A DNA stretch of 58,355 nt from a virus: positions 1 through 58,355 of IMG/VR virus record IMGVR_UViG_3300036760_000091; one strand, 5' to 3'. Under the pieces are notes generated by a model, which was given only the letters and a program-made list of their open reading frames with translations, was not told the origin of the DNA and did no database searches. This document shows positions 2,457 to 56,412 of the stretch, one piece after another. A program made the position numbers and the translations under genes. Position 1 is the stretch's first letter. Every line of letters starts with the position of its first letter.

Positions 2457-2575
2457 GGCGCTACAGCGTGCTCGGGTCGTTGGTGAAGGACTCGTACTGG
2501 CGCGCGTTCATCTACGGGCTGATCATCGGCGGGCTGGTGGTCGACCTCGCGCACAAGGTAGCGAGGTCATGGTGA
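2453..2575 (+). CDS. Small single-pass membrane protein (40 aa)
   Basis: GTG overlaps the preceding stop (GTGA). The product has one hydrophobic segment (AFIYGLIIGGLVVDLA) flanked by basic residues. It ends 7 bases after the start of the large-terminase gene. No family recognised. Confidence 0.5.
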   Translation: MRRYSVLGSLVKDSYWRAFIYGLIIGGLVVDLAHKVARSW

Positions 2576-3408
2576 CGTTGATCCCAGGCGTGCCGGACGC
2601 CGACATCCGCGAGTTATTCGCGCTCTACGAGAGCCTGACGGCCCGCGAAGGCTGCGCGTTCAACACCTACTTCCCGGACGCGGGACCGCTCCGCCGGGAG
2701 CTGTATCCGCGCTCGCTGCTGTTCTGGCTGGCCGGCACGCTCGACCGGGAGCGCATGATGATGGCCGCGAACCGGTGCAGCAAGACCGTGACAGCGGCCT
2801 TTGAGATGACCAGCCACCTGACGGGCCTGTACAAACCGTGGTGGCCGGGCCGGACGTTCGAGGGGCCGATCGAGGCGTGGGCAGCGGGCGACACGCTCGA
2901 AACGACGCGGGACATCATCCAGAACGAACTGTGCGGGCCTCGGCAGCTGGTGAAGGTCAAGCGGTTCGCCGGCATGATTCCGCCTCACCTGATTCTCGAT
3001 CGGTCGCTGAAGTCGGGCAGCGTGAGCGAGTGCATCGACACGCTGTGGATCAAGCACCGGGAGCGGCACCACGGTGCGCCGTGCACGTCGGTCCTCCAGT
3101 TCAAGGCGTTCAACCAGGGCCGGCTGTCGTTCCAGGGGACGAGCAAGCACCTGATCTGGCTGGACGAGGAACCGCCCGAAGCCGGGGACGAAGCGCCCGG
3201 CGGGGGTGGCACGCCGAGCGGGAACGGAGACGTGGTCACAGAGTGCCTGTTGCGGACGGCGACGACCAATGGCCTGCTGATGTTGACCCTGACGCCGCTG
3301 CGCGGGCTGACGCCGTTCCTGGAGAGCTGTCTCGAGCGCGGGGTGATGGTGGACGCGGACGGCGCGGTCATCAACGCGAAGGTCGGGATGTTTGGAGCAG
3401 CAGCATGA
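2569..3408 (+). CDS. Terminase large subunit, ATPase half (5' exon or fragment)
   Basis: Encodes the N-terminal ATPase domain of a P22-type large terminase. A Walker A-like segment NRCSKT is at residues 68-73; relatives I recall carry NRxGKT, so the Gly before the Lys is Ser here. HLTGLYKPWWPG follows, then Walker B LIWLDEE (195-201) and the coupling motif LTLTPLRGLTPF. The gene stops after 279 codons with the C-terminal nuclease domain missing; that half lies 3.3 kb downstream at 6710-7528. The stop is in an ATGA overlap with the next gene. Either this is the 5' exon of a spliced gene or the terminase is made as two polypeptides. Confidence 0.88.
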   Translation: MVTLIPGVPDADIRELFALYESLTAREGCAFNTYFPDAGPLRRELYPRSLLFWLAGTLDRERMMMAANRCSKTVTAAFEMTSHLTGLYKPWWPGRTFEGPIEAWAAGDTLETTRDIIQNELCGPRQLVKVKRFAGMIPPHLILDRSLKSGSVSECIDTLWIKHRERHHGAPCTSVLQFKAFNQGRLSFQGTSKHLIWLDEEPPEAGDEAPGGGGTPSGNGDVVTECLLRTATTNGLLMLTLTPLRGLTPFLESCLERGVMVDADGAVINAKVGMFGAAA

Positions 3409-3992: not shown

Positions 3993-4376
3993 ATGAACCG
4001 CCGGCACTTTCTCCAGTCGCTGCTGGCCGTCCCGGCGCTGACGCTCGCCCTGGCCAAGAAGCCCGAGGCGGCGCTGTGTAAATGCGGGAAGCCGATGCCG
4101 GCCCACCTGGCGCGGCTGACGCCGGAGGACTTTCAGGCGCGCTACATCCGGCCGGCGGCGCTGGCGATTGCCGCCAAAATTGACGAAGACTGCCTGCGCG
4201 CGTATCTCGAAGTCAACCGGCAGATGGACGAGTGGTACGGCGAGCCGGTAGGCGGCTGGAACGCGCGGCCGGTCACGCTGCTACCGCCGCAGCCCGATCA
4301 GGTGTTCATCGCGTCCGGCGGGCGGGGCTACATCCTCACTGGCAGCGGTATGGGATTCTCGGAACTGGAGGCGTGA
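3993..4376 (+). CDS. Exported protein with twin-arginine signal peptide (127 aa)
   Basis: The N-terminus MNRRHFLQ followed by a hydrophobic stretch LLAVPALTLALA matches the Tat signal (RRxFL). After the signal comes CKCGKPMPAH, a Cys-rich stretch that could hold a metal or cofactor, which would explain export by Tat in a folded state, then a helical region and a Gly-rich C-terminus. TatA is encoded 0.7 kb downstream and a second Tat-signal protein at 4845. Substrate and activity unknown. Confidence 0.7.
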   Translation: MNRRHFLQSLLAVPALTLALAKKPEAALCKCGKPMPAHLARLTPEDFQARYIRPAALAIAAKIDEDCLRAYLEVNRQMDEWYGEPVGGWNARPVTLLPPQPDQVFIASGGRGYILTGSGMGFSELEA

Positions 4377-6723: not shown

Positions 6724-7528
6724 CACGGCAAATTGGGACGACAATGCCCCACACCTTGACGCGAAGGCGCGCGCGGACCTGTGGGCGGCGATTCCGAATT
6801 ACCAGAAAGACGCGCGATCGAAGGGCATCCCGCAGTTGGGAGCCGGGGTCATCTACCCGATTCCCGACACGGACATCCTGGTCGATGCGTTCAAGATCCC
6901 GGACTTCTGGCCGCGCGGCTACGGCCTCGACATCGGCTGGAACAAGGTGGCGGTCATCTGGGACGCGATGGACCCGGACACGCTCGACAACGAGGGCGGA
7001 CCGACGATCTACCGGTACGACGAGCACTACGCGGGCGAGCAGCATCCGTCGATCCACGCGGAGGCTATCCGTCGACGCGGCGTCTGGATCCCCGGCGTCA
7101 TCGACCCGGCGGCGCGCGGCCGCACCCAGGACGACGGCAAGAAGCTGATTACGATCTGGCGCGCGGCCATCTACGGCGTCGAGGACATCTCGCTCGGCGT
7201 CCAGATGCTCGGCATCGCCAACAACGCGGTCGAGAGCGGCATCAGCCTCGAGTACACGGCTATGACGACGGGCCGGCTGAAGGTGTTCAAGAACCGCTGC
7301 CCGAACTGGATGGCGGAGCGCCGGCTGTATCGGCGCGATGAGCACGGCCGGATCGTGAAGAAGAACGACCACGCGCTCGACGCCGGCCGCTACCGGACCG
7401 CGTCCGGGACGGGGTACTTGAAGGCGAAGCCGGTGACGGCGCGGGAAGATCCCTTGTCGGCGTTTATGAGCGGCCATCGTGGTGGCTCTGGCAATAACGG
7501 GCAGATGCCCGGACTGGAGAATATCTGA
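6710..7528 (+). CDS. Terminase large subunit, nuclease half (3' exon or fragment)
   Basis: Open from just after TGA 6707-6709. It opens with TANWDDNAPHL and IPNYQKDARSKGIPQLGAG, the conserved linker of P22-like terminases, then the RNase H-fold nuclease: GLDIGW, VIDPAARGR and KNDHALDAGRYR carry the acidic residues that cut concatemeric DNA. There is no ATG or GTG upstream of the linker; the first standard start is TTG at 6836, after the linker. The conserved linker therefore can only be translated by splicing, stop read-through or an unusual start. It ends in an ATGA-type overlap with the portal gene. Confidence 0.85.
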   Translation, partial: LIFIITANWDDNAPHLDAKARADLWAAIPNYQKDARSKGIPQLGAGVIYPIPDTDILVDAFKIPDFWPRGYGLDIGWNKVAVIWDAMDPDTLDNEGGPTIYRYDEHYAGEQHPSIHAEAIRRRGVWIPGVIDPAARGRTQDDGKKLITIWRAAIYGVEDISLGVQMLGIANNAVESGISLEYTAMTTGRLKVFKNRCPNWMAERRLYRRDEHGRIVKKNDHALDAGRYRTASGTGYLKAKPVTAREDPLSAFMSGHRGGSGNNGQMPGLENI

Positions 7529-12225: not shown

Positions 12226-13449
12226 GTGGCTGATAACGACATTCTCACAGACGACGTCCTCGCCAAAGAGGCGCTGATGATCGTCGAGAACAACCTCGGC
12301 ATCACGAAGCTGATCAAGCGTCGATATGAAGGACGCTTCGCCCGTGAGGGCGGAAAGATTGGCGACCACATCGGCATCCGCAAGCCGGTTCAGTGGTCCG
12401 GTCGTGAAGGCGAAGTCATGGAGCCGGAGGGCGCGCAGGAACGCAGCGTCACCCTGAAGATCGACCATCTGATCGGTCAGGACCTCTCGTTCTCCAACGT
12501 GGACCTCACGCTGAAAATCGACATGTTCCGCGAACGGTATTTCGACACCGCTTGCGCGCGCATTGCGAACATGCTCGACCAGGCCGTCTGCCGGCAGTAC
12601 GTGAACATCCCGAACTACACCGGCGTCCCTGGCACGACCCCGACGACGTTGGACTCGTTCTTCGACGCCAGCGTCCTGATGTCGAACTTCGGCGTCCCCG
12701 GCCGTGGCCGGTCGATGGTCGTCTCGCCCCGCGTCGAGGCGTCGATCGTCAACGCTCTGAAGGGTCTGTTCCAGTCGGCCACCGCGCTCTCGAAGCAGTA
12801 CGAGACGGCGATGCTCGGCCATGTGATCGGCTTCGACTGGATCATGGACCAGAACATCAGCCTCCACACGATCGGCCTCCTCGGCGGCACCCCGCTGGTG
12901 ACGACGGCGAGCCAGAGCGGCTCGACCATCAACACGAACGGCTGGACGGCGACCACGGGCAAGGTCAAGCAGGGCGACATCGTCGGGTTCAGCGCGACCG
13001 ACGCCGTCAACCCGATGTCGAAGGATGACACCGGGGCGCTGCGCGGCTTCGTCGTGACCTCGGACACCACGGCGGACGGGTCGGGCAACATGACGATCCC
13101 GATCTTCCCGACGATGGAGTTCTCGGGGCCGTACCAGAACGTCAGCGCCCTGCCGGCGGCAAACGCGCCCGTGACGATCTTCGGATCGGCCTCGGCCTAC
13201 GCGAGCACCGCCACCAAGCAGAACCTGGCGATTCACACGGAGTGCATGACCGCCGCGTTCGTGGACCTGGACCTGCCGAAGGGCATGGCGATGGCCGCGC
13301 GCGCGAAGAGCAACAAACTCGGGCTGGCCATCCGGATCGTCAAGGGTTTCGACATCCGGACCAACCAGGAGCTGTGCCGTCTCGACGTGCTGTTCGGCCT
13401 CAAGGTCCTCTACGAGGACTTCGGATGCCGCGTGCAGTCGGCGCAGTAG
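12226..13449 (+). CDS. Major capsid protein, P22 coat family
   Basis: 407 aa with GTG start. N-terminal VLAKEALMIVENNLGITKLIKRRYEG, then a G-DHIGIRKP strand and an HLIGQDLSFSNVDLTL segment resemble the P22 coat (HK97 fold with an inserted domain). The central region DSFFDASVLMSNFGVPGRGR and the C-terminal GFDIRTNQELCRLDVLFGLK are also typical. It follows the scaffold by 11 bases and is followed by a strong hairpin. Confidence 0.88.
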   Translation: MADNDILTDDVLAKEALMIVENNLGITKLIKRRYEGRFAREGGKIGDHIGIRKPVQWSGREGEVMEPEGAQERSVTLKIDHLIGQDLSFSNVDLTLKIDMFRERYFDTACARIANMLDQAVCRQYVNIPNYTGVPGTTPTTLDSFFDASVLMSNFGVPGRGRSMVVSPRVEASIVNALKGLFQSATALSKQYETAMLGHVIGFDWIMDQNISLHTIGLLGGTPLVTTASQSGSTINTNGWTATTGKVKQGDIVGFSATDAVNPMSKDDTGALRGFVVTSDTTADGSGNMTIPIFPTMEFSGPYQNVSALPAANAPVTIFGSASAYASTATKQNLAIHTECMTAAFVDLDLPKGMAMAARAKSNKLGLAIRIVKGFDIRTNQELCRLDVLFGLKVLYEDFGCRVQSAQ

Positions 13450-13481
13450 TACTCGAGGGACATAACCACCACGCAGAAAGA

Positions 13482-13511
13482 CGCCCGGCGGGCGAGCAAC
13501 CCCGCCGGGCG
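13482..13511 (+). terminator. Strong hairpin after the coat gene
   Basis: CGCCCGGCGGG (13482-13492) pairs perfectly over 11 bp with CCCGCCGGGCG (13501-13511) around an 8-base loop, 33 bases after the coat stop. It lacks a long U-tract; probable terminator that separates coat from the exported-protein cluster. Confidence 0.65.
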
Positions 13512-13554
13512 CGTTCCTGAACCGACTTATCAACCCTTTCGAGGGGAGAACTCA

Positions 13555-14487
13555 GTGATGAAGCGCACCCGTTCGATCCTGCCGATGCTGCTGTTCGCCG
13601 TCATCTTCATGATGCTCGGTGCGCACGCGCACGCGCAGACGTTTCTGACCACAACCACGACGACCGCCGCCGTCACCAGCCGATCGCAGCAGCAGGTTCC
13701 GCTGACGTCCGTGACCGGCATGAACGTCAACGACTACCTCTGGTGGGACGGTGAGGTGTCGCAGGTTCAGGCGATCAACACGACCAGCAAGATCGTCACG
13801 CTGACGCGCGGGAAGCGCGGCCAGACACCCAACGACTCAATGGGTGCAGGCCGAGGCCACGCGAGCGGTGTCACCGTCCTCTACGGGCCAGTGAAGGCGT
13901 TCTATCTGGACGACGTCTCCGGCGCATGCACGGCCGCGAACGAACAATACATGCCTCACGTCGTCGTCACGTCCGGCCGCGTCTACGACTGCATCGGCTC
14001 GGTGTGGCAGGTCGTGCGCGACATCTTCGGCACGCCGGCTGAGACGCAGCTGGTCGACAATGCCTCGGTGGCGTCAGGCACCACGCAGTCGACGGACTAC
14101 ACGCTGAACTCCATCGTGATTCCGCAGGCGGAGTGGGCGCTGTCGCGCGGCATCTCGTGTCGCACCTGGGGGCAGTCCGCCACCAACGCGAACGCGAAGA
14201 CCTACAAGATGTTCTTCGGGGCGACGGCGGTGGCGACGGATGCGACTGGTTCCTACAACAACGTGTCGTATCTGGCGAGCCTCGACGTCCTGCGGACCGG
14301 CATCTCGACGCAGTTTGGCTCGGCAACGATCACCGGCACGCCCGGTGCGCCCACCGCCGGCCCCACCACGAACTCGGCGCTGGCGGAGGCGGAAACCGCC
14401 GCCATCACCATCAAGTTCACGTCGAACAACACCGCCGCTGCCGCCGCGTCTGCGACCGGCAAGGGCATGACCTGCTCGCTGTACTAG
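13555..14487 (+). CDS. Sec-exported protein 1 of 4 (310 aa)
   Basis: Starts GTG/ATG (13555 or 13558) after GGGGAGA. N-terminus MKRTRSILPMLLFAVIFMML then AHAHAQ is a complete Sec signal with an Ala-x-Ala cleavage site. The mature protein is beta-rich and Thr/Ser/Ala-rich; the C-terminal half resembles fibre or decoration-type domains, and cysteines occur near the end (TCSLY). First of four adjacent signal-peptide genes directly after the coat gene. Function unknown; an exported virion accessory or periplasmic protein are both possible. Confidence 0.75.
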   Translation: MMKRTRSILPMLLFAVIFMMLGAHAHAQTFLTTTTTTAAVTSRSQQQVPLTSVTGMNVNDYLWWDGEVSQVQAINTTSKIVTLTRGKRGQTPNDSMGAGRGHASGVTVLYGPVKAFYLDDVSGACTAANEQYMPHVVVTSGRVYDCIGSVWQVVRDIFGTPAETQLVDNASVASGTTQSTDYTLNSIVIPQAEWALSRGISCRTWGQSATNANAKTYKMFFGATAVATDATGSYNNVSYLASLDVLRTGISTQFGSATITGTPGAPTAGPTTNSALAEAETAAITIKFTSNNTAAAAASATGKGMTCSLY

Positions 14488-14497
14488 GGCTGACGCC

Positions 14498-14950
14498 ATG
14501 ACGCGCCTGATTCAACTCCTCGCCCTGCTCGGTCTGCCAGCGTTGGTGCTGGCCCAGAGCGCCTCTGGCTATCAGCAGCTGTCGATGTCGGACCTCGTGA
14601 CCCCGAGCACGATCAGTGCTGGCGTCACGCTGAACTCGACACGCTGCGAGGGGACGCTCGAGACGGCTAAAATCCGCGTGCTCTGGACAGGAGCCGTACC
14701 GACGACGACGTCGGGACAGCCGATGTATGTCGGGGACCGCATCACGCTCGCCAACGCGACGGACATCAGGAATTTCAAAGCCATCATCATGTCAGGCCAG
14801 TCCGGCTCATCCGTCGCCGTGCTGAACCTGACGTGCGCGGGCGGGACACTGGCGGAGCGGTCGTTCATTGCGCCCGCCACGTCTGCGTCGACGTCGGGCC
14901 TTCCGATCTGCAACCCGCTGTACAAAGCCGCTGGCGTCAGCTGCCAGTAA
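14498..14950 (+). CDS. Sec-exported protein 2 of 4 (150 aa)
   Basis: MTRLIQLLALLGLPALVLAQ is a Sec signal peptide. The mature part is about 130 residues, beta-rich, with Cys residues at about 54, 111, 137 and 149. It ends ICNPLYKAAGVSCQ, closely similar to the end of the 15500 protein, so the two are probably paralogues with a C-terminal disulphide. No named family. Confidence 0.7.
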   Translation: MTRLIQLLALLGLPALVLAQSASGYQQLSMSDLVTPSTISAGVTLNSTRCEGTLETAKIRVLWTGAVPTTTSGQPMYVGDRITLANATDIRNFKAIIMSGQSGSSVAVLNLTCAGGTLAERSFIAPATSASTSGLPICNPLYKAAGVSCQ

Positions 14951-14982
14951 AGACAACTTCTTTCGCATAAGGGAGACTGGAA

Positions 14983-15471
14983 ATGTTCCGAAACCTGAAG
15001 ATCGCCGCCGTCCTCGCCGCGCTGCTCATGCTCGCGGTTCCCATTCACGCGCAGAATCCGTCCGGGATCGCCGGCTCGGTGCCCACGCAGGCGGGATCTC
15101 CTGCGTATTCGCTGACCGCCATCAGCTCGACGGCGGCGGTGAACAACCAGGTCACACTGACCATCCCCGCGCCGACCGCGTCCGGGTACTACAACTATAT
15201 CTGCTACTTGGGCTACAACGCCTCGCAGGACGGCACGGCCACGGCGCAGACGAATGCCGTGACGACCAGCACGAACTTCAACGCGTTCGCGCTGAAGTAC
15301 AGCCTGACGGCGACGGCGACCATCAACTACGCCCGCGACTTCTACTGGGGGAACCCGGCGACGGGGTGTGTGAAGAGCGCCGCGCCGACGACGTCGACGA
15401 CCTTCGTGTCGCCGGCTGCGGGTGCGAACATCGCCTTCACCTGGCAGGCGACATATTACCAAGCGCCATAA
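14983..15471 (+). CDS. Sec-exported protein 3 of 4 (162 aa)
   Basis: Good ribosome-binding site (AAGGGAGA). MFRNLKIAAVLAALLMLAV followed by PIHAQ is a Sec signal. The mature protein is a Thr/Ala/Ser-rich predicted beta sandwich with two cysteines (YICYLGY and GCVKS), suggesting a disulphide outside the cytoplasm. Family unknown. Confidence 0.7.
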   Translation: MFRNLKIAAVLAALLMLAVPIHAQNPSGIAGSVPTQAGSPAYSLTAISSTAAVNNQVTLTIPAPTASGYYNYICYLGYNASQDGTATAQTNAVTTSTNFNAFALKYSLTATATINYARDFYWGNPATGCVKSAAPTTSTTFVSPAAGANIAFTWQATYYQAP

Positions 15472-15499
15472 ATTCAGTTAATTCAGACACTTAACTGGC

Positions 15500-15979
15500 A
15501 TGACGCCGTTCCGCGTGCTGCTCGCGCTGGTCCTGCTCGGCCTTCTGGTCGCGCCGGTCCGCGCGCAGCAGCCGGTTACGACCCAGACTCTCACCGTCAC
15601 GGCCACCACGGCCGTAGGGCTGTCCACGACGACGATCAGCCCTGCCGGCGCGCCGGCAGTAGGCAATTGTCAGGGGCAGGTCCAGGGCGGCTCCGTGCTG
15701 GTCTGGGCGACGGGGGCGACTCCGGCGGTCGCCAGCGGGAGCACGCCAGCCTCGGGCTTCTGGCTGAACCCAGGGTCCTTGTTCTGGCTGACGTCGTTCA
15801 TCGCGTCCAAGCAGTTTCTTGCCGTGGCCGTCGGGGCGACCGCCACGATTCAGTTTCAATGCGCGCGCGGCGCGGACATGTCCGGGTCGCTCCCTCCGTT
15901 GGTGGTGAATTACGACCCCGGCACGGTGGGCGTCTCGTCCTGTAACGCGCTGCTCAAAGCATCCGGCTACTGCCGGTAG
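15500..15979 (+). CDS. Sec-exported protein 4 of 4 (159 aa)
   Basis: MTPFRVLLALVLLGLLVAPV then RAQQ is a Sec signal with cleavage after RAQ. The mature domain is beta-rich with Cys near residues 56, 123, 148 and 157, and ends SCNALLKASGYCR, matching the 14498 protein. Its stop lies 10 bases before the next GTG. Confidence 0.7.
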   Translation: MTPFRVLLALVLLGLLVAPVRAQQPVTTQTLTVTATTAVGLSTTTISPAGAPAVGNCQGQVQGGSVLVWATGATPAVASGSTPASGFWLNPGSLFWLTSFIASKQFLAVAVGATATIQFQCARGADMSGSLPPLVVNYDPGTVGVSSCNALLKASGYCR

Positions 15980-17490: not shown

Positions 17491-18942
17491 ATGCCACGCA
17501 TGAAGTACCCATCGTTTTGTGGGCCTTCCTACGTTGCTCAGTCAAGCATCACTGACTGCGAACAGTGCTTCAACCTGTTTCCAGAGAGCAACAAGGCTCC
17601 GAGCGCGAAGTCGCAGTACTCGCTGCTGCCGACGCCTGGCCTGAGCCTGCTGGCGACGGCGGACCAGGTGGGCGGACGCGCAATCTTCTGTGAAGGTGGG
17701 CGGGCGTTCTGCGTCATCGGGTCCACCTTTTACGAGATCAACAGCGACTTCACGTTGACGTCGCGTGCGACTGGGCTGAAGACAAACGCCAACCCCGCGA
17801 CGATCTGCGCGAACGACGATCTGAACGGCGAGGTCTTCGTCACGAGCGGCGGCAACGGCTACATCTTCGACCTGCCCACGAACACATGGACAGTCATCGC
17901 CAACCTGGTCGGCAAAGCCGACATGGGCGCGCACAGCGAAGGCTTCTTCCTCGCGCTTCAGTTCTCGACGTCGACGGTGTTTCAATCGAAGGTCGATGAC
18001 GGGCTGACGTGGGACCCGAACGACTTCTTCCAGCGATCGGCGTTCCCGGACCCGTGGAAGTCGCTGACGGTGACGCCGTCAGGACAGGTGCTCCTGCTCG
18101 GCACCGCCACGGGCGAACTCTGGGGCGATGTCGGCACGTCCCCGATCGCCTTCGCGCCGATCGGCGGGGCGAAGTTCAAGCAGGGGATCGTCTCGCCCTT
18201 CTCCGCGCGCGCGCTCGGGTCTTCGATGATCTGGGTGGCGCAGAACTCCGATGGCAACCGGACGATCCAGCAGCTGTCTGGCTACAACGCCTTCCAGGTC
18301 AGCACGCCGCCGATCGACTACGCGCTCCAGCAGTACGACGATATCTCCGACGCGGTGCCCACAAACTACGACCTCGAAGGGCACATGCACTACTCGTTGA
18401 ATTTCCCGAATGCGAATGCCAATTGGACCTTCGACCAGACGGAAGGCTTCTTCCATCGGCGCGGCACCTGGAACACCGGAACGGCCCAGTGGGATGCGTG
18501 GCGCGCGGGGCCTCATGCCGTCGTCTACGGGAAGCATGTCGTGCTCGATCGGCTGTCCGGCGCGGTCTATCAGCTCGGGACGCAGTTCGGCTACGACGCG
18601 GACAGCGGCCCGTTGCGCCGGATGCGGATTCCGCCGGCCATGAACGAGCGGCACCAGACGATGTACTACTCGGATCTCGAGGTGTACATGGAGGTCGGCC
18701 TCGCCAACTACAACGGCGCGGGCAGCAACCCCTTCCTGTATCTCGAGTCGAGCAAGGACGGCGGCAAGACCTTCGGCCATCGCCGCGCGCGCAGCTGCGG
18801 GGTCGCCGGCCGCTACCAGACGCGCGTGCGATGGGGCACGATGCACGCCGCGCGTGACCACGCGGACCGGCTGACCTACGACGCCCCGGTGCCGCTCCGG
18901 ATTACTGACGCGTACATCACCGTCGATGCCGGCACATCGTAA
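17491..18942 (+). CDS. Packaged-DNA stabilisation / tail hub protein (P22 gp10-like)
   Basis: 483 aa, ATG two bases after the preceding stop. Starts YPSFCGPSYVAQSSITDCEQCFNLFPE and LLPTPGLSLL, the characteristic opening of gp10-like proteins that plug the portal and form the short-tail hub. The body is beta-propeller-like repeats (GNGYIFDL, GTATGELWG, GEL). C-terminal region ends in a beta domain. Confidence 0.8.
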   Translation: MPRMKYPSFCGPSYVAQSSITDCEQCFNLFPESNKAPSAKSQYSLLPTPGLSLLATADQVGGRAIFCEGGRAFCVIGSTFYEINSDFTLTSRATGLKTNANPATICANDDLNGEVFVTSGGNGYIFDLPTNTWTVIANLVGKADMGAHSEGFFLALQFSTSTVFQSKVDDGLTWDPNDFFQRSAFPDPWKSLTVTPSGQVLLLGTATGELWGDVGTSPIAFAPIGGAKFKQGIVSPFSARALGSSMIWVAQNSDGNRTIQQLSGYNAFQVSTPPIDYALQQYDDISDAVPTNYDLEGHMHYSLNFPNANANWTFDQTEGFFHRRGTWNTGTAQWDAWRAGPHAVVYGKHVVLDRLSGAVYQLGTQFGYDADSGPLRRMRIPPAMNERHQTMYYSDLEVYMEVGLANYNGAGSNPFLYLESSKDGGKTFGHRRARSCGVAGRYQTRVRWGTMHAARDHADRLTYDAPVPLRITDAYITVDAGTS

Positions 18943-19469
18943 TGGCGGTCGCGCAGGTCGAAGACGCCCCGCTCGAGGAGCCGATCGTCCTGTTGTCGGA
19001 CGCCGCCAAGAAACGGCTCCAGGTCAACGAGGATCGCGGCGACCTCCGCATCAATCCGCGCTGGTACGACTGGATCTGGCAGTCGCTGCTGAAGCGGCTG
19101 AACTCCGCCCCGTCCCAGTTCGGCACCGTCGTCTCGAAACAGGGGCTAACCGCCGCGCAGGCCGTGACGGCGATCGTCCTGCCGGCGCTGGCGCAAGGGC
19201 GCTACCGGGCGACGGTGCATGTGAAGGTCCGGACCGCCGCCGGCACGAACAGTCAGATCCTCGTCACGATCGGCTACACAAACAACGGGGTGGCGTGCTC
19301 GCAGTCCACGACCAATCTGACGACGAATACGACGTCCTCGGTGGAGGGCAAAGTGATGCCGATCGTCTGTGATCAGGCGTCTCCGATTACCTGGTCGACC
19401 ACCTACGTCTCGGCCGGCGTGCCCGCGATGGCGTACGACGTCGACATCAGCCTTGAGGCGCAGAACTGA
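18942..19469 (+). CDS. Hypothetical virion protein (175 aa)
   Basis: ATG overlaps the previous stop. N-terminal part is charged and helical (NPRWYDWIWQSLLKRL); the C-terminal 100 residues are Thr/Ala-rich beta strands (VTIGYTNNGVACSQ). Position after the gp10-like gene is that of a needle or tail-tip gene in P22, but no similarity to needle proteins is visible. Confidence 0.6.
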   Translation: MAVAQVEDAPLEEPIVLLSDAAKKRLQVNEDRGDLRINPRWYDWIWQSLLKRLNSAPSQFGTVVSKQGLTAAQAVTAIVLPALAQGRYRATVHVKVRTAAGTNSQILVTIGYTNNGVACSQSTTNLTTNTTSSVEGKVMPIVCDQASPITWSTTYVSAGVPAMAYDVDISLEAQN

Positions 19470-23411: not shown

Positions 23412-25079
23412 ATGTCCGGACAATTCGTCTTCCAGGCATATCAGCAGGACTCGTCTCCAGTGACGAACGCCATTATGGCGGGCGGTGCTGCGCGGGCGCG
23501 CGGCGCGGAGGTCGCCGGGCAGGCATGGGGGGGGGCTGTTCAGGGCGTCGGCCAAGCCGTCGGTCAAACGCTGAACGACATCCTGAAGTACCGATCGCCG
23601 GAAGCGCAGGCCAAGCGCGCTGAGGCTACGCTGGCGCTCGAAGACACGAACGACACGCTGGCGATGCAGAAGGCGATGCGCGCGGCCGGTGGCGATCCGA
23701 ACGCGGCGCTGATGTCGCTCGATAAGGCCGGCGCGATCGGCGCGTCGACGAAGCTCCGCACCCAGATGAACGTGGAGCGCAACAAGGGCCTCGACACGCA
23801 CATCAAGGAACTCACGGTCCAGAAGGACAACTTCGAGCAGGCCACGAAGCTGATCGGCTCGGTGCCGGAGGCCGACCCGAAAGACCCGGACAGCCTCGCC
23901 AAAGCGAGCGAGGTCTACAAGTCGATCGTCCCGCAGTTGCGCGGGCTGCTGTCCGGCCCGGTGGACCCGGCCACGGGAAAGCCGACGCCCGGTGTCGGCG
24001 CGTCGATTCCGGACGAGTACAACCCGGACACCGTCCAGAAGATGCGGACCCTCGGGATGAGTGTCACCGAGGCCCTCAGCTACCGGAAGGAAGCGGCGGC
24101 GGAAGCGCGCGCGGCGCTCACGGGGGCCACGACGAAGGCCGAGCTGATCGACAAGATGACGACGTCGACGGCGAACTACCTCCGGACGGTCGACAACCCG
24201 GCGGAGTGGGCGAAGACGCTGGCTGGCGTCAAGCAGCTGGTGCCGCCGGACGTGGCGGACGCCATCATCGGCCGGTTCGATCAGACCTTCGATCCGAAAG
24301 TCTCGCCGCAGAAGGCCGCTGTGCTGCTCGAGAAGCCGAAGGAGACGACGTACGAACCGAAGAACGTCATCGCCACCGTGGCCGGGAAGCGCGTCCTACT
24401 CAGCGCCGGGTTCGATAAAGAGAAAAACCAGTGGTTTGCCCCGGACGCGCCTGGGGTGCCGCTGAAGAACGTCGTGGAGTTCGTGAAGGGGCCGGAAGGG
24501 CAGCTGACCACGGCTGACCGGAGCGAACTGACGAAAGCCGTCCAGGACAACCCGCATATCTGGAACCAGCTGACCGAGACAGCGCGGACGCAGATTGCCG
24601 GCGACCTGCACAAGGCCGGGTTCAAGTTCCCGATGATCGACCACGGGGCGAGCGTGGCAGCGGCCGAACGCTGGAAGATGGGCGCGCTGAAGGCGCTCGA
24701 CACCGAGTACGGCACAAAGCGCGGACTGAAAGGGCCGTTCGGGATGACGCAGGCGCAGTACGACGCCAAGAAGGCCGAGATCCTGACGTCGTACAACCTC
24801 CAGATCGGGTCGCAGGGCCAGCCGCCGCCGAAGCCCGCCGCGCCGCCGCCAGCGCCGGCACAGCCCGCGCCTCCCGCTGCTCCGGCCGCTGCCGCACCGG
24901 TTGCGCCGGTTCCACCGCCAGCGCCGGCCGCGCCCGCCGCGCCAGCCAAGCCGGCGACGACCGCTCCGGCGGCTGGAGAAGTGCCGTTGCACCTTCCGAG
25001 CGGGAACATTGCGTGGTTCAAGGACCAGGCCGCGCTCGATGCGTTTCTGAAGAAGCACAACCTGACCGTTAAAAAATGA
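23412..25079 (+). CDS. Putative internal virion protein (555 aa)
   Basis: ATG abuts the GIY-YIG stop. Ala/Gly-rich N-terminus, then long helical region with no enzyme motif, and a Pro/Ala-rich linker (residues about 470-525) before a small C-terminal domain. Its stop overlaps the start of the giant gene that follows. Order and composition suggest an ejected protein. Confidence 0.6.
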   Translation: MSGQFVFQAYQQDSSPVTNAIMAGGAARARGAEVAGQAWGGAVQGVGQAVGQTLNDILKYRSPEAQAKRAEATLALEDTNDTLAMQKAMRAAGGDPNAALMSLDKAGAIGASTKLRTQMNVERNKGLDTHIKELTVQKDNFEQATKLIGSVPEADPKDPDSLAKASEVYKSIVPQLRGLLSGPVDPATGKPTPGVGASIPDEYNPDTVQKMRTLGMSVTEALSYRKEAAAEARAALTGATTKAELIDKMTTSTANYLRTVDNPAEWAKTLAGVKQLVPPDVADAIIGRFDQTFDPKVSPQKAAVLLEKPKETTYEPKNVIATVAGKRVLLSAGFDKEKNQWFAPDAPGVPLKNVVEFVKGPEGQLTTADRSELTKAVQDNPHIWNQLTETARTQIAGDLHKAGFKFPMIDHGASVAAAERWKMGALKALDTEYGTKRGLKGPFGMTQAQYDAKKAEILTSYNLQIGSQGQPPPKPAAPPPAPAQPAPPAAPAAAAPVAPVPPPAPAAPAAPAKPATTAPAAGEVPLHLPSGNIAWFKDQAALDAFLKKHNLTVKK

Positions 25080-28000
25080 GCGACGACCTCGACCTCGACA
25101 CGCTGGCGGCAGACGCTGGCGCGAAGGTCACGCCGCCGACGTTGCCGAGCACGCAGTACAGCGGCGTCATGGCGTTCAAGCCGGAACAGAAAGCTGAAGA
25201 CTGGGACGCGATCGCTAAAGCGGCCGGCGCGCGCGTCGGTGCGCCGAAAGCCGAGGCCCCGCTCGACGTCGAGGCCGCAGCTCGAGCCGAAGGGGCCACG
25301 ATTCGTCGTCCAGAAGCGCATATTGGACCAGCGCCGACACCACACGTCAAGGAGGGCGAATCGGTCCAGTTCCTCCATGTCGACGCCTCCGGGTTGCCAG
25401 CCGCGCCTCGTGTTGCGCCACCGAAAGCAGATGGACCGCCGCTTGTGAATGGCCGTCCTGTAGGCGACACGCGGAACGTCTGGGACCCCGTGGGCGCGAT
25501 GCAGAAGATCGGCGCAAGCGCGACGGCGATCAAGAGCACGTTGGACGCCGGGCAAGTGCTGTGGAAAAGCGACCACGACCGGAACGCGGCATCGGCGGCA
25601 ATCGAAGGACTATTTGAACTAACCAAGCCGTTGATGGTCACGCTCGGCGCGGCTGCGCCTGCGCACGCGGCCGTCGGCATCGCCGCGACGATGGCGGCCC
25701 AGAAGGCGACGTATGCCTTCGTGAAGTCCAACGGTGGGACGGATACGGATGCACGCCTGGCTGGTAATATCGCCGCCTTGCTCGCCGCCGGCATCAGCAG
25801 CAAGAAGGTGATCGAGGCTGGCAATAAGGGCGTCGAGGCCGCACTCGACGCAGCGAAGTCTGCCGCACGCCCGTTGGCGTTGTCGGCCAAGCTGGCTTAT
25901 GCGGGTTACGGTCCTGGAGACATTCCAGGTGGACGCGCTGTGCCGTTTGCCGCAGACGGGCCGAACGGCCCTAGCGACGTGCGGACCATTGTCGAGTTGT
26001 TCACAGAGGCTCCCAAAGGTACGCCGGCAGCGGACATCGACGCGATCCGACGCGGGTTCACTGGAGAGCCATCCCCAGGCCATGAGTTTACGGCGGTCGG
26101 AGAAGAGCCTCCCGTCCCGACGTCGGGACCGGTCGCTGTTGAACCAGAGATCAAGGCACTGGAGCGCGTACTCGAGGAACAGGACGCGCTGCGAAAGGCT
26201 GGAGCAGCCAAGACGGACCAGCTGTATGCCGCTGCAGCGCAGAAACTGGAGGGAGCCGATGCCACTCAAGCCGGGCAGCAGCCGGAGAACGATCTCGGAG
26301 AACATCTCGGAACTGACACACCACGGGTCCCGGCCACGGTCGCACCGGCAGATCGTAGCGATCGCCCTGTCGAACGCGGACCGGCATCCATCCCCACGGT
26401 CGAGCAGCCCGAGTCGACACTACGGGGCGGGGAACTGGAAGCATCACCACAAGCGGACCTGATCGAGCGGATCGTGACGGCCGCGCACCGCCCACGCCCA
26501 GAGGTCGCCCCGGTCACAGAACTCAAGGGCACGGACGGAAAGTGGTATCGAGGCAATGGGTTCCCTGTCGGCGTGCAGATGGTGGACCCGGTCGAGAAGC
26601 GCACGGCCGGCTATTCGCTCTTGATGCCGGACGGCACCCGCGCCGGCACGATTCGTCCGACGGCTGACGACGTTCACGCGGACATTCAGCGCGCCGAAAA
26701 TGCGAACGATCAGGATTTCCGCCAAGCTCTCAGGGAGATGCCGCCGGAGCGGTTGCAGTCACAGGCCGAGTTCTGGCTGAAGGACAAAGCGCCGAAGGCG
26801 AAGACCGTCGAGACGCCAGCGCCGGAGATGGGCGTCGGCACCACGTTCAACGCCGAGGGGAAGACGTGGCGTGTCCTGAAGTATCAGGAGCACGGCAAGG
26901 GCACGCAGCTCGAGCAGGTCGGGACAACGCTGGCTCCAACCAGCGGAGTGATGGCCCCTGGCCGAGTGACGAGTCGGTGGGTGTCTGATTCTGAACTTCG
27001 CGTGATGCTCGGAGAGCACGCGGCCGCAACGCCGAAGCCGGCGGTGGATCTGGTCATCCAGTCGCTCAGGCCTGGTGCCGCGCCTCGCACGGTCACGCTG
27101 CCGGCGACGTCCGCGCCTCCGGCGGTACTCGAGCAGCCGAAGCTGGCGGGCGCGGAGATCCGCCACAACACCCAGAACGGGGGCGTCGAGGTCAAATTCG
27201 CGTCGAAGCCGGCCCAGGAAGTCCTCGAGCAGTTGAAGGCCAAAGGCTTCAAATGGGCGAAGGGTAACAAGGTCTGGTACAAGAAGATTGCCGCGCCTGG
27301 GAACACGTCGGCCTACCTCTCCGAGCACGATCGGCTGACCAAGATCTTGCAGGGGATCGTCGGAACTGCGCCGGTCGCTGCCCCGTTGACAGCCTCGACG
27401 GAAGCGCCCACAGTAAAGGAAGCCGATGTCGCAACCAGTGGAACTGACGCCGGACAACTACCTGTCGCTGGAGGACCAGCCGCTGACGCCGTACGAGATG
27501 GAGGCGAAGGCGCACTGGGAGCGGTTCCTCCCGCGAGCGGTAGCCGAGTTGAACCGGAAGGGGCCGGAGGCGTTGGACACGGCGATTCGAGCAGCCGCGC
27601 ACCTGACGGAGTACCACACGCTGCGAGCGATGGCGGAGAATCCGGGGCTGCACGAACTCCAGGCGCGACGGATGTTCGAGAATCAGTGGCTCATGGTCCC
27701 ACCGGAGCCACCCACGACCCAGGGCACGCCGCCCTCGACTACCAACTCACGCCCGAGCGCATCGCCGCCATCATCGGACGCGGCCCGCTCGAACGCGCCC
27801 GAGGCAACCTCGAGGCCGTCGACCTCATAAAGCGGCTCACCGCCGAGAACCGCTACGCCACGCCAGACGAACAGGAGATCCTGGCGAAGTACGTCGGATG
27901 GGGCGCGAGTGAACTCGCCAAATTCCTCAGTGACTATCCCGACGCCGGCTGGAGCAAGAACGAGCGCGCGATCTGGGAGCGCATCAAGACCGACCTGACG

Positions 28001-31000
28001 GCGGACGAGCGGAAAGCTCTCGAGCGGTCGACCCCGAACGCCCATTTCACCTTCGATCTCTACCGGCCGATCTGGGAGGCGCTGGTCAACGCCGGCTTCA
28101 CGGGCGGGCGCATCCTCGAGCCGGCCGTCGGCACCGGGCACGCCTTCGGCTACATGCCGCCGGACGTCCGGGACGCCTCGACGCTGAACGCCGTCGAGCA
28201 GGAGCCGTTTACCGCCGCCATCGCCCATCATCTCTATCCCTCGGCGCGCGTGCAGCCGGTCGGCTATGAGAACGCCCGCATCGCGCGCGGGACGCAGGAC
28301 CTGGTCATCAGCAACGTGCCCTTCGGAGACTTCGGCGTGCAGGACAAGCACATGCCGAGCCTGCTGACGGACCCGAAGCAAGGGGGGATGATCCACAACT
28401 ACTTCTTCGGCAAGGCGCTCGAGCACGTCCGGCCGGGCGGGCTGATTGTCTTCGTGACCTCGAAAGGCACGATGGACGCGGCCGTCACCACGCGCATCCG
28501 CAGCTACCTGATGGAGCGCGCGGCCTTTGTCGGCGCGATCCGCCTGCCAAATACAGCCTTCGGGAAGTCGGCCAAAACGGAGGTCATCACCGACCTGATC
28601 GTCCTGCGCCGGCTGCTGCCTGGCGAGACGCCGGACCCGGTCCAGAGCAAGCTGTTCATCGAAGCCCCGAAGCACGAGGGCCTCACGAAGTCGGTCTACT
28701 CGCGCGGGCGGACGCAGGACAGCACGATCACGCGGTCGTCCTGGTATACCGCGCATCCGGAGTACATCCTCGGCACCGAGTCGCGCGAAGGCACGATGTA
28801 CGGCGGGGGCGAGTACACCGTCACGGCGACGACGCCGAACGTCACTGAGGCGATGGCGAACGCCCTGAAGACGTTGCTGCCACAAGGGACGTACGTGCCG
28901 GCGGTCCGCGAGATGGCGGTGCGGTCGACGGCCGTGGCGGAAGGCGCGTTCAAAGCCGGCGAACTGCGCGTCAACCCCCAGACGGGCAATATCGATCGCG
29001 TCGGTCCGACGGGCGAAATTAGCGATGCCACGCCGATGCGTCTCATCAAGGAGACGGGCGAGAAGATCGTGGACACGAAGGCGGTCCACCGCATCAAGGG
29101 GATGATCGCCATCCGGGATGCCCTGCGCGCCACGGTCGCGGCGATGCAGAACCGGGAATCGACGGATAAGGAGATCAAGGACCATCAGCGGGCGCTCCGC
29201 AGCCTGTATCAGCAGTTTGTCCAGAAGCACGGCGAGTTGAACAGCCGCAAGAATCGTGGCCTGTTCAAGAACGATCCGGAAAGCGCCAACCTGACGGGCC
29301 TCGAGCAACTCGAACTACAAACGAAGATCGAGCAGAAAGACGGGGAGCCGGTCCTCAAGATCTTCTACAGAGTCACCGGCCCGGCGGACATCTTCACGAA
29401 GCGGGTCATTAATCCGGACCCGCTGATCACGCACGTCGACACCCCAGAGGCGGCGCTCTTCGCGTCCCTCGGCCTCCACGGTCGGTTGGACTGGCCGTAC
29501 ATGGCCGAGATCAGCGGGCAGGACGTCGAGGATCTCAAGGCCGCGTTACTTCACGCCGGCATCGTCTTCGAGCAGCCAGACGGCGCGGTCGTCCTCGGAG
29601 AGGAATATCTCTCGGGTGACGTCGTCTCGAAGCTGGCGGACGCCGAAGCCGCGCATGATCCAAAGTTCGCACCGAACATTGAGGCGCTGAAGGCGGTTCA
29701 GCCAGCGCCGAAGACGGCGGACGACGTCGCGTCCGGCGCGGTGGCGATCGGCCTCGGGTCGCACTGGGTGCCGCCGTCGGACCTGTCGGCGTTCGCGGCC
29801 GAGCAGCTTCATCTACGCGGCGGGGTTCGGTACACGGTCGAGAGCACGGCGGCGCTCGTGACATGGACCGGCGGGTTCTCAGACAGCGCGGTCCGCGCCT
29901 CCGCGCAGCACCCGATGGCGGTACGGTACGGCGCTGGCGACGACGCCGAGACGCAGCCGGAGGTCTACGGCTTCCTTGATCTCCTGAATGACGCGCTGAA
30001 TCTCCGGACGCCTGACCTCGGCCACTACGTGCGCGAGGTCGACGGGTCGCGTCACTACGTGAAAGAGCCGAAGAACACGCTGGCGGCTCGGGCCAACGTG
30101 GAGGCCCTGCGGGACGCTTGGACCGAGTTCGTCTATAAGCACCCCGCCGTCATCGACGCCCTACTCGAGCAGTACAACGCCCGGTTCAACCGGACGGTCG
30201 AGCGCACCCTTGACGGGTCGCACCTGACGTTCCCAGGCATGGCGACGATCACGGATGCGGCCGGGAACGTCCTGCACTTCTTCCCGCACCAGAAGAACGT
30301 CGTCTGGAGGATTCTCGCCACCGGCAACACGCTGATGGCGCACGAGGTCGGTGCCGGGAAGACCTACGCCATGATCGCGGCGGCGATGGAGATGCGGCGC
30401 ACCGGCCGCGCCCAGAAGCCGATGATCACCGTTCCGACGTATCTCCTGCGCCAGTGGGCGAGCGATATCAAGACGCTCTACCCGGCGGCGAAGGTGCTGG
30501 CGTTCGATGAAAAGGACCTCGAGGCGTCCAAGCGGCGCGAAGCGATGGCCCGGATCGCGTTCGGGAACTGGGACATCGTCCTGGTGCCGCACTCGTCGTT
30601 CGAGTTGCTGAAGTCATCGCCGGAGCGGATCAAGGCCGTCACGCAGGAATGGATTGACGAACTGATTGCGGCCGAACTCGCAAACGGCGACGACGAAAGC
30701 CCGTCCGTCAAGCAGATGCAGCGGATGCGCCGGAAGATGGAGGACAAGGTCGCGGCGCTGACCGACTCGATCGACAAGGGCAACGACACGAACATGTATT
30801 GGGATCAGCTCGGCGTCGACGCGCTGATGGTGGACGAAGCCCACGCCTTCAAGAACCTCTTCTTCCACTCGAAGATCGACAACATGCGCGGCCTGAGCCG
30901 GAGCACGGCCGACAAGTCGCTCGACCTGCTGGTGAAGATCCGCGACATCAACGAGAACTCGAACTACCGGAACATCGTGCTGGCGACGGCGACCCCGGTG

Positions 31001-34000
31001 ATGAACTCGATCGGGGAAGTCTTCACGATGCAGCGGTATCTGCAACCGCAGACACTGAAGAAGTACGGCCTCGAGAACTTCGACAACTGGTACGCGATGT
31101 TCGCGCACGCCAAGATGGTGACGGAACAGCGCCAGGACGGCACCTACCACGAAGTCATGCGTCTAGCGTCGTTCAGCAACCTCCAGACGCTGTCGAAGAT
31201 GGTCCGGGAGGTCATGGACTACGTCGGGTGGGAGGACATGCCCTACCTGAAGCTGCCGAAGATTGCCGGCGGCAAGATCGAGATCGTCCAAACGCAGCCG
31301 GCCCCGATGTATGACCGCGCGCGCGAATGGTTCACCGAGCGCCTGGCGGCGATCAAAGCGAACCCCCCGCACATCAAGCGCGACGGCACCTACGTCGCTC
31401 CGGAGCGGATGGACATGCTGACCGGGCAGGGGATGGGCAAGCACGACAACATCCTGACCGTGATGACCGACGCGAAGAAGGCCGCGATCGACCTGCGGCT
31501 GATCCTCGGCAATCGCGCCAAAGACACCCCCGGCTCGCGTCTCCAGGTCGCGGCGAAGATGATGGTGGAGCAGTACAAGGCGACGAAGGCCGAGAAGGGC
31601 GTCCAATTGGTCTTCATGGACCTCGGAACACCGCCGAACCCCGGCGCGCTCGAGTTCCTCGGCAAGCTCAAGGTCGATGACGAGACGGAAGGTGAAGCCA
31701 ACGAGCAGGATCTGGTCGAGGACGCGCTGGACGCGACGGAGGCGGGCGGCTTCAATCTCTACGATGCGCTGAAGGCGCTGCTGGTCAAGCAGGGCGTGCC
31801 CTCGCACGAGATCGCGTATCTACACCAAGCCAATTCCTCGGCCGAGCGCATCGAGTTGTTCAAGGCGGCGAACAACGGCCGCGTGCGGTTCGTCTTCGCG
31901 TCGACCGACAAGGGTGGCGTGGGCATGAACGTCCAGACGCGCCTGTCGGCCATGTGGGAGATCGACCCGCCGCGTCACGGCCGGCCCGGCGATCTTCGGC
32001 AGCGCATGGGACGCATCATCAGGCAAGGCAACACGTATCCAGAGGTCCGGCTGGTGCGGTTCGTCACGCAGGGCACGACCGACGAGTGGACGTGGGGCAT
32101 CACGACAACGAAGGACTACCAGGTGCGGCAGTTCCTGAAGGGGAACCTGTCCACGATGGAGGATGTCGACCCGAACACGATGTCGCTCGAAGAGGCGATG
32201 ATGCGGTCGTCCAATGACCCGCGCACCGTCGAACTCACCGACCTAAAGAGCGTCCTACCGCGCCTCGAGGCGCAGGCGTCCTCGGCCGCGCGCGCCCTCG
32301 GGCAAGCGAAGACCGATATCGCCAACTCGACCGAGCGTCTGGGCTGGCTCAATCGGGACCTCTCGCAGTTGGAGAAGTGGATCGAGGACTCCTACCAGTC
32401 GAAGCGGAAAGACGGCTTCGAGTTGACCATCGGAGACACGACGTACACCGACCGAGCGGAGGCCCAGGCGGCGATTCTGAAGCGCCTGCGTCCGACGCCG
32501 GCGATGGGCGACTCGTTCACGCACGAGGCCGTCATCGGACGGATGGGCGATCGAGACATCACGGCCACCTGGGAGATCTTCAAACGGAAGGAACCGGAGT
32601 GGCGGGACGTCCAGGACGAAAAGACGGGCAAGATTCAGCAGAAGCATTTCATCGTCGACAAGCTGTACAAGCGCGTGGCGCTGACGATGCAGGGCGAGGA
32701 TATCGGCGCAATCAATCGCAGCGCCGTCACGCTGCACCAGGACGACCCGGACGACTACGCGACGTTCGGGAAGGGCCAGGACCCGATCGCCAGCCTCGTG
32801 AACGCCTACGAGAGCTTGCCGCTCCACCGCAACGATCTGACGGCCGGCATCCAGCAGGCGACCGAGAAGATCTCGCACGCCGAGGCCACGCTCAACTCGC
32901 CGTCGTCGGCAGTCGCCAAGCTCACGAAGACACGGGAGCGGATCGCGGCGCTTGAGAAGGAACTGACGGCAGAGAGCGCGGCCAAAGGCGCGGCGGCGAG
33001 TGCGGCGCTTCAGGCAAAGGCCCTGCCGGCGCACGCGGACGCCTCGAATGAACAGGGGTTCGTCAGCCTCGAGCCGCTGAAGCCGATCGCGGACGAACTG
33101 GTCAACCTGGTGGACATCGCGCGGTTCGTCTTCGCGCCGGACACCCGGACACCGGACACGCGCGCCGGGGCAGCGGTGTTGAGCAAGGCGATTGCCGCGC
33201 GGGATCAGACGCTGGCGCGGTTCCAGACGGCCGTAGAAGCCACCGAGCGCGTCATGGACGGCTGGTCACACGATCAGTCGCTCGCCTTCTGGGACGCGAT
33301 GGAAGGCGTCACGCCGACGTCGTCGCTCGGGGATCCGGATCTGATTCGGATGGCCGACGCGCTGAAGACGATCGTGGACTACTGGACCGACCAGGTCACG
33401 AAGCGCGGCCTCATCAAGGCGTACATCGAGCACTACTGGCCGCACGAATGGGTCAAGCGGGGGACGACGCTCGAGAAGGCGATCCGGGCCGTCTTCAGCC
33501 GCCGGCCGATTCAGGGGCCGGAGTCCTATCGGAAGCGGCGCACGATTCCCACAACCCGCGAAGGCATCGAGAAGCACAATCTCGAGCCGGTCAGCTGGAA
33601 CCCGGCCACGCAGTTGATGCGGAAGGTCGCGGAGATGGCGAACTCGGTCAAAGCCTACGAGATGCGGAAGGCGTTCAAGCGTCAGGGCCTGCTGAAGTTC
33701 GTCGGAGAGGGCCAGCGCCGGAAGTTGATCCGGGAGAAGCGGATCGGGCAGAACTGGATTCCGTATCCGGAGGCGTTCGTCGGCACCGTCTACGCCCCGC
33801 CCACGTTCATCACCGAGAGTGGCGAAGAGGCGCGCGTCCCGTTCGGGCGGCTCGTCGCCGGCCGCTACTACGGTCCGCCGGAACTCGTGCAGCTGGTGAA
33901 GAACCACCTGTCGGCGGGTCTGGTCGGGAAGAGTAAGGCATTCGACCTTGTGCGGAGTGCCTCAAACCTCCACACCCAGGCCCTGCTCGGCTGGTCGACG

Positions 34001-37646: not shown

Positions 37647-38240
37647 ATGCCAGTTCGTTTCGATCCTCGTACGCGACTCGTCGGGCCGTCATCGGCAGCG
37701 ATGGTTGCCAGTTGGGGCAACCGTCTGCCCATTGTGCGAACCGTGCAGCGCGGGACATTCGCGACGGCGGCTGGCACTTCAGCGACCGCTACGATTACAG
37801 CCGTAGACACCAACAACGCGGAACTGGTCCTTCTCGGAACAAGCCAAACCGACGCAAATGCGAACGCCGCCGTCATGTTTGGCCGTGCAACACTCACGAA
37901 CGGTACGACCATCACTGGGACAATTGGCTTCGCCGGCACCGTGACCTTTTCGTATGAGGTCATGGAGTATTTCCCAGGATGGTTCAAGAGTGTCCAGCGC
38001 GGAACGATTGCGATCGGCGCGGCCACGAGCGCGACCGCCACCGTCACGAGCGTCAATATATTGAAGTCGCGGCTAACGTGGCAGGGCTACTCGATGACGA
38101 CAGCCGCGTCGGTGACGACTGATATTTGGGCCGTGAAGGAAGTCCTGACGAACGGCACGACGATCACTGGAAGTCGAGCTACTGGAGATGCGAATAATCC
38201 TCCGACCTTGTCGTATCAACTTTTAGAGCATTACCTATGA
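37647..38240 (+). CDS. Tandem-repeat virion protein (197 aa)
   Basis: Two copies of an 80-residue beta domain are visible: VQRGTFATAAGTSATATITAV... LTNGTTITG... EVMEYF (residues 32-110) and VQRGTIAIGAATSATATVTSV... LTNGTTITG... QLLEHYL (114-197). Probably a fibre or decoration protein. Stop overlaps the next ATG. Confidence 0.6.
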   Translation: MPVRFDPRTRLVGPSSAAMVASWGNRLPIVRTVQRGTFATAAGTSATATITAVDTNNAELVLLGTSQTDANANAAVMFGRATLTNGTTITGTIGFAGTVTFSYEVMEYFPGWFKSVQRGTIAIGAATSATATVTSVNILKSRLTWQGYSMTTAASVTTDIWAVKEVLTNGTTITGSRATGDANNPPTLSYQLLEHYL

Positions 38241-55809: not shown

Positions 55810-56412
55810 ATGAACGCCTCCGAAGGACGGAAGTTAATCGACGGCTTCACGAAACTGGTCAGCGATCTGGTCGGGGAACCGATCAAAGTGAGCATCGGCC
55901 GCAACATGGACGAGGCCAAAGCGGGCCTGAAGACCGTCGAGCGGGAACTGTCGCCGGCCGAAAAAGACGTGCTGAAGAAGGCATGGAAGCGCGACGTTCC
56001 CTCCGAGCCGAGCGCGGACGCCTTCGAGGACGCGGCGATGGAGCGCATGTATCAGGCGTTCAAGAACCGCATCATCAAGGAGTCGGCTATCGACCCTGTA
56101 TTGTTGCAGCTGCTGACGGTGCGCCCGGAGATTGAACTCGAAGTCGAGCGGCGCGTGGTGTCACTGGACACGAGCAAGCCGAAGGGGCGGATCGCGCGGC
56201 TCATCTCGCAGGGCTGGTTCGACCAGGAGCCGCGCGGCAGCGGGCAGGTCCGCATCGAACTGGTCCGGACAGGCTCGGACCCAGGCAACGCGAGCGTCGG
56301 CACGGCGCTGGCCGACCTGACGCGCGAGGGCTTCCTCGAACGTGCCGGCGAACGCTACGTCAAAGCGCCAGGCGTGAAGATCTCAGAGAAGGAACTGGCG
56401 GTGACGCGGTGA
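55810..56412 (+). CDS. Hypothetical protein with winged-helix-like C-terminus (200 aa)
   Basis: ATG after GAAAGGG. Residues 118-185 (SKPKGRIARLISQGWFD, then ALADLTREGFLERAGERYV) look like a small winged-helix or effector-type domain. N-terminus is mixed alpha/beta. No function assigned. Confidence 0.55.
   Translation: MNASEGRKLIDGFTKLVSDLVGEPIKVSIGRNMDEAKAGLKTVERELSPAEKDVLKKAWKRDVPSEPSADAFEDAAMERMYQAFKNRIIKESAIDPVLLQLLTVRPEIELEVERRVVSLDTSKPKGRIARLISQGWFDQEPRGSGQVRIELVRTGSDPGNASVGTALADLTREGFLERAGERYVKAPGVKISEKELAVTR

Follow-up and report, generated by a model that had tools for sequence, protein, structure and literature searches.

Four adjacent genes with predicted Sec signal peptides directly follow the coat gene in the virion cluster of a P22-like phage

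Four genes encoding proteins with predicted Sec signal peptides lie directly after the major coat gene of a virus that, by gene content, is a P22-like podovirus. The DNA analysed, called the window throughout, is a 58,355-base virus record, and the features at this locus are as follows.

12226-13449, + strand: major coat gene, P22-type, the anchor of the cluster (Pfam PF11651 P22_CoatProtein, E=7.8e-38; PHROG 283 major head protein, E=3.8e-68)
13482-13511, + strand: perfect 11-bp G+C hairpin between the coat gene and ORF1, with no T-run
13555-14487, + strand: ORF1, 310 aa; predicted signal peptide 13555-13635, cut after AHAHA and before Q; tail-fibre-type barrel; 4 Cys in the mature form
14498-14950, + strand: ORF2, 150 aa; predicted signal peptide 14498-14554, cut after LVLA and before Q; 4 Cys; probable paralogue of ORF4
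14983-15471, + strand: ORF3, 162 aa; predicted signal peptide 14983-15051, cut after PIHA and before Q; 2 Cys; orphan
15500-15979, + strand: ORF4, 159 aa; predicted signal peptide 15500-15565, cut after PVRA and before Q; 4 Cys; probable paralogue of ORF2

The four genes are tightly spaced and co-directional, with the P22-type coat gene upstream and the connector genes (15989, gp4-like, Hc3) downstream, which bears out the initial annotation in placing them within the virion cluster, directly after the coat. Long antisense ORFs overlap the cassette genes. Since GC3 is 0.82-0.89 in the cassette ORFs and codon-usage scores are above zero in the annotated frame only, we regard ORF1-4 as real genes rather than shadows of these antisense ORFs; their codon usage also agrees with that of the window's virion genes. 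The segment containing the hairpin (13450-13557) has a predicted RNA fold of -41.4 kcal/mol (z=-3.48), and the hairpin is a possible expression step-down element or mRNA stabiliser.

Elsewhere in the window, the portal protein matches Pfam P22_portal (E=3.8e-116), and the other virion genes comprise a scaffold-like gene, the connector Hc3 and a gene for a 3519-aa DarB-like protein (25076-35635). This DarB-like protein contains zero Cys, and the ejection-type proteins encoded next to it (21764, 23412) have none. The large terminase appears to be divided between two genes lying far apart (2569-3408, 6836-7528) that correspond to ATPase-like and nuclease-like halves. It also appears split in the related phages L008 (2120-2968, 4001-4777) and L010 (589-1431, 1564-2304), and is intact as a single gene in L028 (2344-3864). 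The small protein encoded between the two halves in the window (3993-4376) begins with MNRRHFLQ..., which resembles a twin-arginine (Tat) signal (Pfam TAT_signal, E=0.007, short of the cut-off); a link between this protein and the coat was rejected as too weak (pairwise E=0.007 over 28 residues). In the lysis region, the protein encoded at 39090-39473 matches Pfam Tlde1 (E=2.4e-9) and is possibly the phage's peptidoglycan-active enzyme.

Signal peptides were called with three home-made scorers of the n-, h- and c-regions. By sequence and by these scorers, each of ORF1-4 has a positive n-region, a hydrophobic core and an A-x-A-like cleavage site, and all four were called, the A-Q site not always being the one chosen. 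As background, the scorers made about one call in total when the N-termini of 811 genes from related phages were shuffled, and reshuffling the residues of each cassette N-terminus gave calls in 2-11% of cases. The predicted signal of ORF1 is MKRTRSILPMLLFAVIFMMLGAHAHA, followed by Gln; its start is either GTG 13555 or ATG 13558, of which the ATG is better placed, after GAGGGGAG. For ORF2, ORF3 and ORF4 the predicted signals are MTRLIQLLALLGLPALVLA, MFRNLKIAAVLAALLMLAVPIHA and MTPFRVLLALVLLGLLVAPVRA, again each followed by Gln, so that every one of the four proteins has Gln at +1. Few other window genes have an export-like N-terminus, namely the Tat-like gene at 3993, lysis-region ORFs at 38.7-40.9 kb and a small membrane protein at 56409. 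Export of ORF1-4 via Sec and signal peptidase I is thus a well-supported prediction from sequence, and the initial claim of four adjacent Sec-signal genes stands, as does its core point that such a block is unexpected in the virion cluster of a tailed phage.

The mature proteins are rich in cysteine, with 4, 4, 2 and 4 residues in ORF1-4, or 14/690 (2.0%), compared to 22/4216 (0.52%) in the other virion genes (p=2e-4). An even number of Cys was found in 13 of the 16 signal-bearing proteins of the window and its relatives. Both features are indirect signs, as would be expected of periplasmic disulfide-bonded proteins. Gln occupies +1 in 12 of the same 16 proteins, a set curated by hand and partly by a scorer that rewards Gln, and in 4/4 of those in the window. 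A preference for Gln at this position, the Q-rule, has been described for Bacteroidota exports (PMC5837995). With a scorer blind to +1, we found Gln at +1 in 18/63 calls from acidobacterial DNA compared to 1/17 in Noviherbaspirillum, and this difference makes an acidobacterial host plausible for the window; the small Gemmatimonadota sample (2/4 calls) is also compatible.

A domain shared with tail and tail-fibre families was detected in ORF1, at its N-terminus. In the AlphaFold model this region forms a beta-barrel (pLDDT 68-89 in blocks over residues 1-60), and the C-terminal half has no usable model. The barrel matched PHROG 4406, a virion structural protein family (E=4e-5), and the ORF1 homologue of L017 (6015-6857) matched the tail protein PHROG 1101 (E=3e-6) and the tail fibre PHROG 9851 (E=2e-4); signal-less ORF1 homologues align to the same part of the PHROG 1101 profile. 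In the PDB, Foldseek's top matches were three phage structures (tail tube, baseplate and AP22 tailspike), all at E>0.001; among viral models it gave 21 matches at E<=0.001, including one fibre and one tail-collar protein. Matches to ATP-synthase and pyruvate-kinase were rejected as small-barrel look-alikes. From these profile and fold matches, we assign the ORF1 N-terminal domain to the tail/tail-fibre type. The barrel is common to ORF1 and its relatives in PHROG 1101, 9851 and 4406; the members of these families compared at the post-coat position lack a signal peptide, whereas the window protein has both a signal and a Cys pair.

ORF2 and ORF4 share 27% identity, four aligned Cys and the C-terminal motif CNxLxKAxG..C, which gives moderate support for their being probable paralogues. 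A fold common to all four proteins, as had been suggested, therefore holds at most for this pair, since ORF1 and ORF3 have no visible relation to it. No homologues of ORF2-4 were detected, and none of the three matched a PHROG or Pfam family. ORF3 gave a sub-threshold match to the Bdellovibrio fibre tip Bd2133 (8ok3; E=0.095), which we treat as a lead only. A PETase-like match of ORF4 (E=0.003) was rejected as partial and of low complexity, and AlphaFold models of ORF4, and of ORF4 together with ORF2, yielded no usable fold. A fibre or decoration type for ORF2-4 is suggested by their position and by their neighbour ORF1. Among IMG/VR records, ORF1-4 and the L017 homologue had no close relatives except L017 itself, and ORF1 and ORF3 had none in phage records.

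Coat-based searches recovered 80 viral and 22 genome loci, and the post-coat gene was compared among them. The gene right after the coat varies, and in the majority of the 80 viral loci a signal-bearing gene is absent. Members of the ORF1 family without a signal peptide, with an MSITTTTL-type start, occupy the post-coat position in at least nine loci, including L022, L028, L030-L033, L050 and L065. Signal-bearing members number four: those of the window, L017, L064 and an Acidobacteriales MAG (L089; gene at 1423-2637 of L192). In all four the signal peptide is fused directly onto the conserved family start, and all four carry a Cys pair with a following Trp, which is present in 0/8 of the signal-less members examined (p=0.002). 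On the ORF1-family tree, which is weakly resolved, one change of state is enough to account for the signal peptide. L007 and L008, the phages closest to the window by coat (63% identity), both lack the cassette, and so do the cultured relatives compared. In L007 and L008 the gp4-like connector gene is hugely extended (L008 10688-14464, 1258 aa in total; L007 1697-4222, 841 aa), and the extension is perhaps an alternative adhesive module.

Signal peptides are also predicted on other proteins of related phages, including a tail fibre (L038 7318-9339; PHROG 4492, 6e-40), a beta-helix/tail-spike protein (L014 11932-15573) and a lectin-domain protein (L064 12991-16719), as well as on large late-operon proteins in L030, L033, L050 and L089. 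No comparable signal-bearing virion genes were found in the cultured and environmental relatives in phage records (PBR31, VvAW1, EBPR podovirus 1 and four Manatee Spring records), apart from one glycine-rich call in L203. In the Acidobacteriales phage, the N-terminal part of the protein encoded at L089 3350-5089 resembles an intein end (...THNYFANGVLVHNC) ahead of a terminase-like gene.

The reading we prefer, at a probability of roughly 0.4, is that ORF1-4 are late, Sec-exported, signal-peptidase-I-cut and disulfide-bonded proteins of fibre or decoration type that meet the particles at lysis. They would be synthesised alongside the coat protein, threaded by Sec into the periplasm, cleaved before Gln, and folded in that compartment, where they could acquire disulfide bonds precluded in the cytoplasm. 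Heads and connector would be built in the cytoplasm, as is usual for P22. Lysis would open the inner membrane and mix the particles with the periplasmic pool, which we assume to hold enough unattached cassette protein, and the exported proteins would then dock as accessory fibres or decorations. We hold slightly more tentatively the wider proposal that a P22-like lineage makes its heads in the cytoplasm and its disulfide-bonded fibres or decorations in the periplasm, to be joined at lysis, with the signal peptide as a module added to ordinary tail-fibre-type proteins. The signal-less homologues at the same post-coat place, and the co-occurrence of signal peptide and Cys pair, speak for such assembly in two compartments. 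Against it, most sister proteins are signal-less, so that the post-coat position does not require export, and the Cys enrichment would equally fit exported proteins that never touch the particle. Late joining has a precedent in the P22 tailspike, which is added to finished heads. The decoration protein Dec likewise binds P22 capsids in vitro, post-assembly (PMC6449081). Among the roles listed in the initial annotation, the one we favour for ORF1 is addition to particles at release, given its tail/tail-fibre domain and the signal-less version in sister phages; a superinfection block finds less support, as the lipobox of known lipoprotein-type blockers is absent.

A serious rival, less probable yet fitting almost the same evidence as assembly in two compartments, is receptor masking or superinfection exclusion. 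Here the exported fibre-type domains would never join the particle; they would fill the periplasm or envelope late and occupy receptors, keeping progeny off debris or shutting other phages out of infected cells. The signal peptides and Cys enrichment of the cassette are as this reading predicts, the fibre-type domain of ORF1 would bind the phage's own receptor, and the absence of the cassette from L007 and L008 is as for an accessory trait. In addition, other candidate receptor-binding proteins, without signals, are encoded at 18942-19469 and 37647-38240 of the window, and on their account we dropped the argument that the window has no other receptor-binding protein. However, ORF1-4 have no lipobox or membrane anchor for retention in the envelope, their position in the virion operon suggests late expression, at a stage that is late for exclusion, and in relatives whole tail-fibre and beta-helix proteins, which resemble particle components, also have signal peptides.

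We consider it improbable that the hydrophobic N-termini are uncleaved virion or membrane anchors on ordinary particle proteins of the cytoplasm. Some phage fibres do attach through short N-terminal segments, but all four proteins combine a positive n-region and hydrophobic core with an A-x-A-like site and then Gln, Gln directly follows such a site in 12 of the 16 hand-curated signal-bearing proteins of related phages, and the Cys enrichment points to an oxidising compartment. Marginally less probable again is moron-type cargo, in which exports of host origin would have entered the late operon to modify the host surface, unrelated to the particle. The cassette does vary between close relatives, its Gln at +1 resembles host-type export signals, and Q-rule exports without a known function are encoded by Porphyromonas gingivalis phages (PMC10367356). 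Against this, the ORF1 family is of phage tail/fibre type and signal-less at the same place in sisters, the codon usage is that of the phage's virion genes, and related phages have signal-bearing proteins at several places in the late operon. We rejected an Llp-type lipoprotein blocker of superinfection or receptors, as +1 is Gln in 4/4 rather than the lipobox Cys, and also a role in lysis (spanin, SAR endolysin or holin), as ORF1-4 have no lysis-family match and lysis-type genes lie at ~38.7-41 kb.

Virion proteins with signal peptides are familiar from filamentous phages (M13 gp3, gp8), which assemble at the membrane without lysis. The window phage has candidate virion proteins of this kind, but is by its genes tailed and P22-like, with heads that would be filled in the cytoplasm. 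The cassette resembles phage L Dec and other decoration proteins, for which late docking is known, in consisting of extra small, beta-rich-looking accessory genes in a P22-type virion cluster (PMC6449081, PMC7602432). The post-coat position of ORF1-4 fits capsid decoration proteins such as Dec and Hoc; no sequence link between ORF1-4 and Dec or other decoration proteins was found, and signal peptides are nowhere mentioned in a review of decoration proteins (PMC7602432). Phage-encoded Q-rule exports are already known from Nixviridae phages of P. gingivalis, which, like the window phage by prediction, encode Sec/SPI proteins with an exposed N-terminal Gln; those proteins have no known function, may, in the view discussed there, modify the outer membrane of the host, and are not described as members of tail-fibre-type families (PMC10367356). 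In the open-licence literature we found no report of a signal-bearing subfamily within a tail-fibre-type virion gene of tailed phages, an absence that carries little weight because the search was limited to that literature.

Virion proteins of tailed phages are usually assumed to be cytoplasmic, and exported fibre-type proteins would contradict this assumption. If assembly in two compartments is correct, the envelope of the infected cell would be altered before lysis, and the joining of parts at lysis would be a testable assembly step. In one survey, the absence of signal peptides from phage retroelement-target proteins was counted in favour of their phage origin (PMC6199706); if our reading is true, signal-bearing receptor-binding proteins may be mistaken for host genes. 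Finally, Gln at +1 may give a clue to the phylum that an uncultured phage infects.
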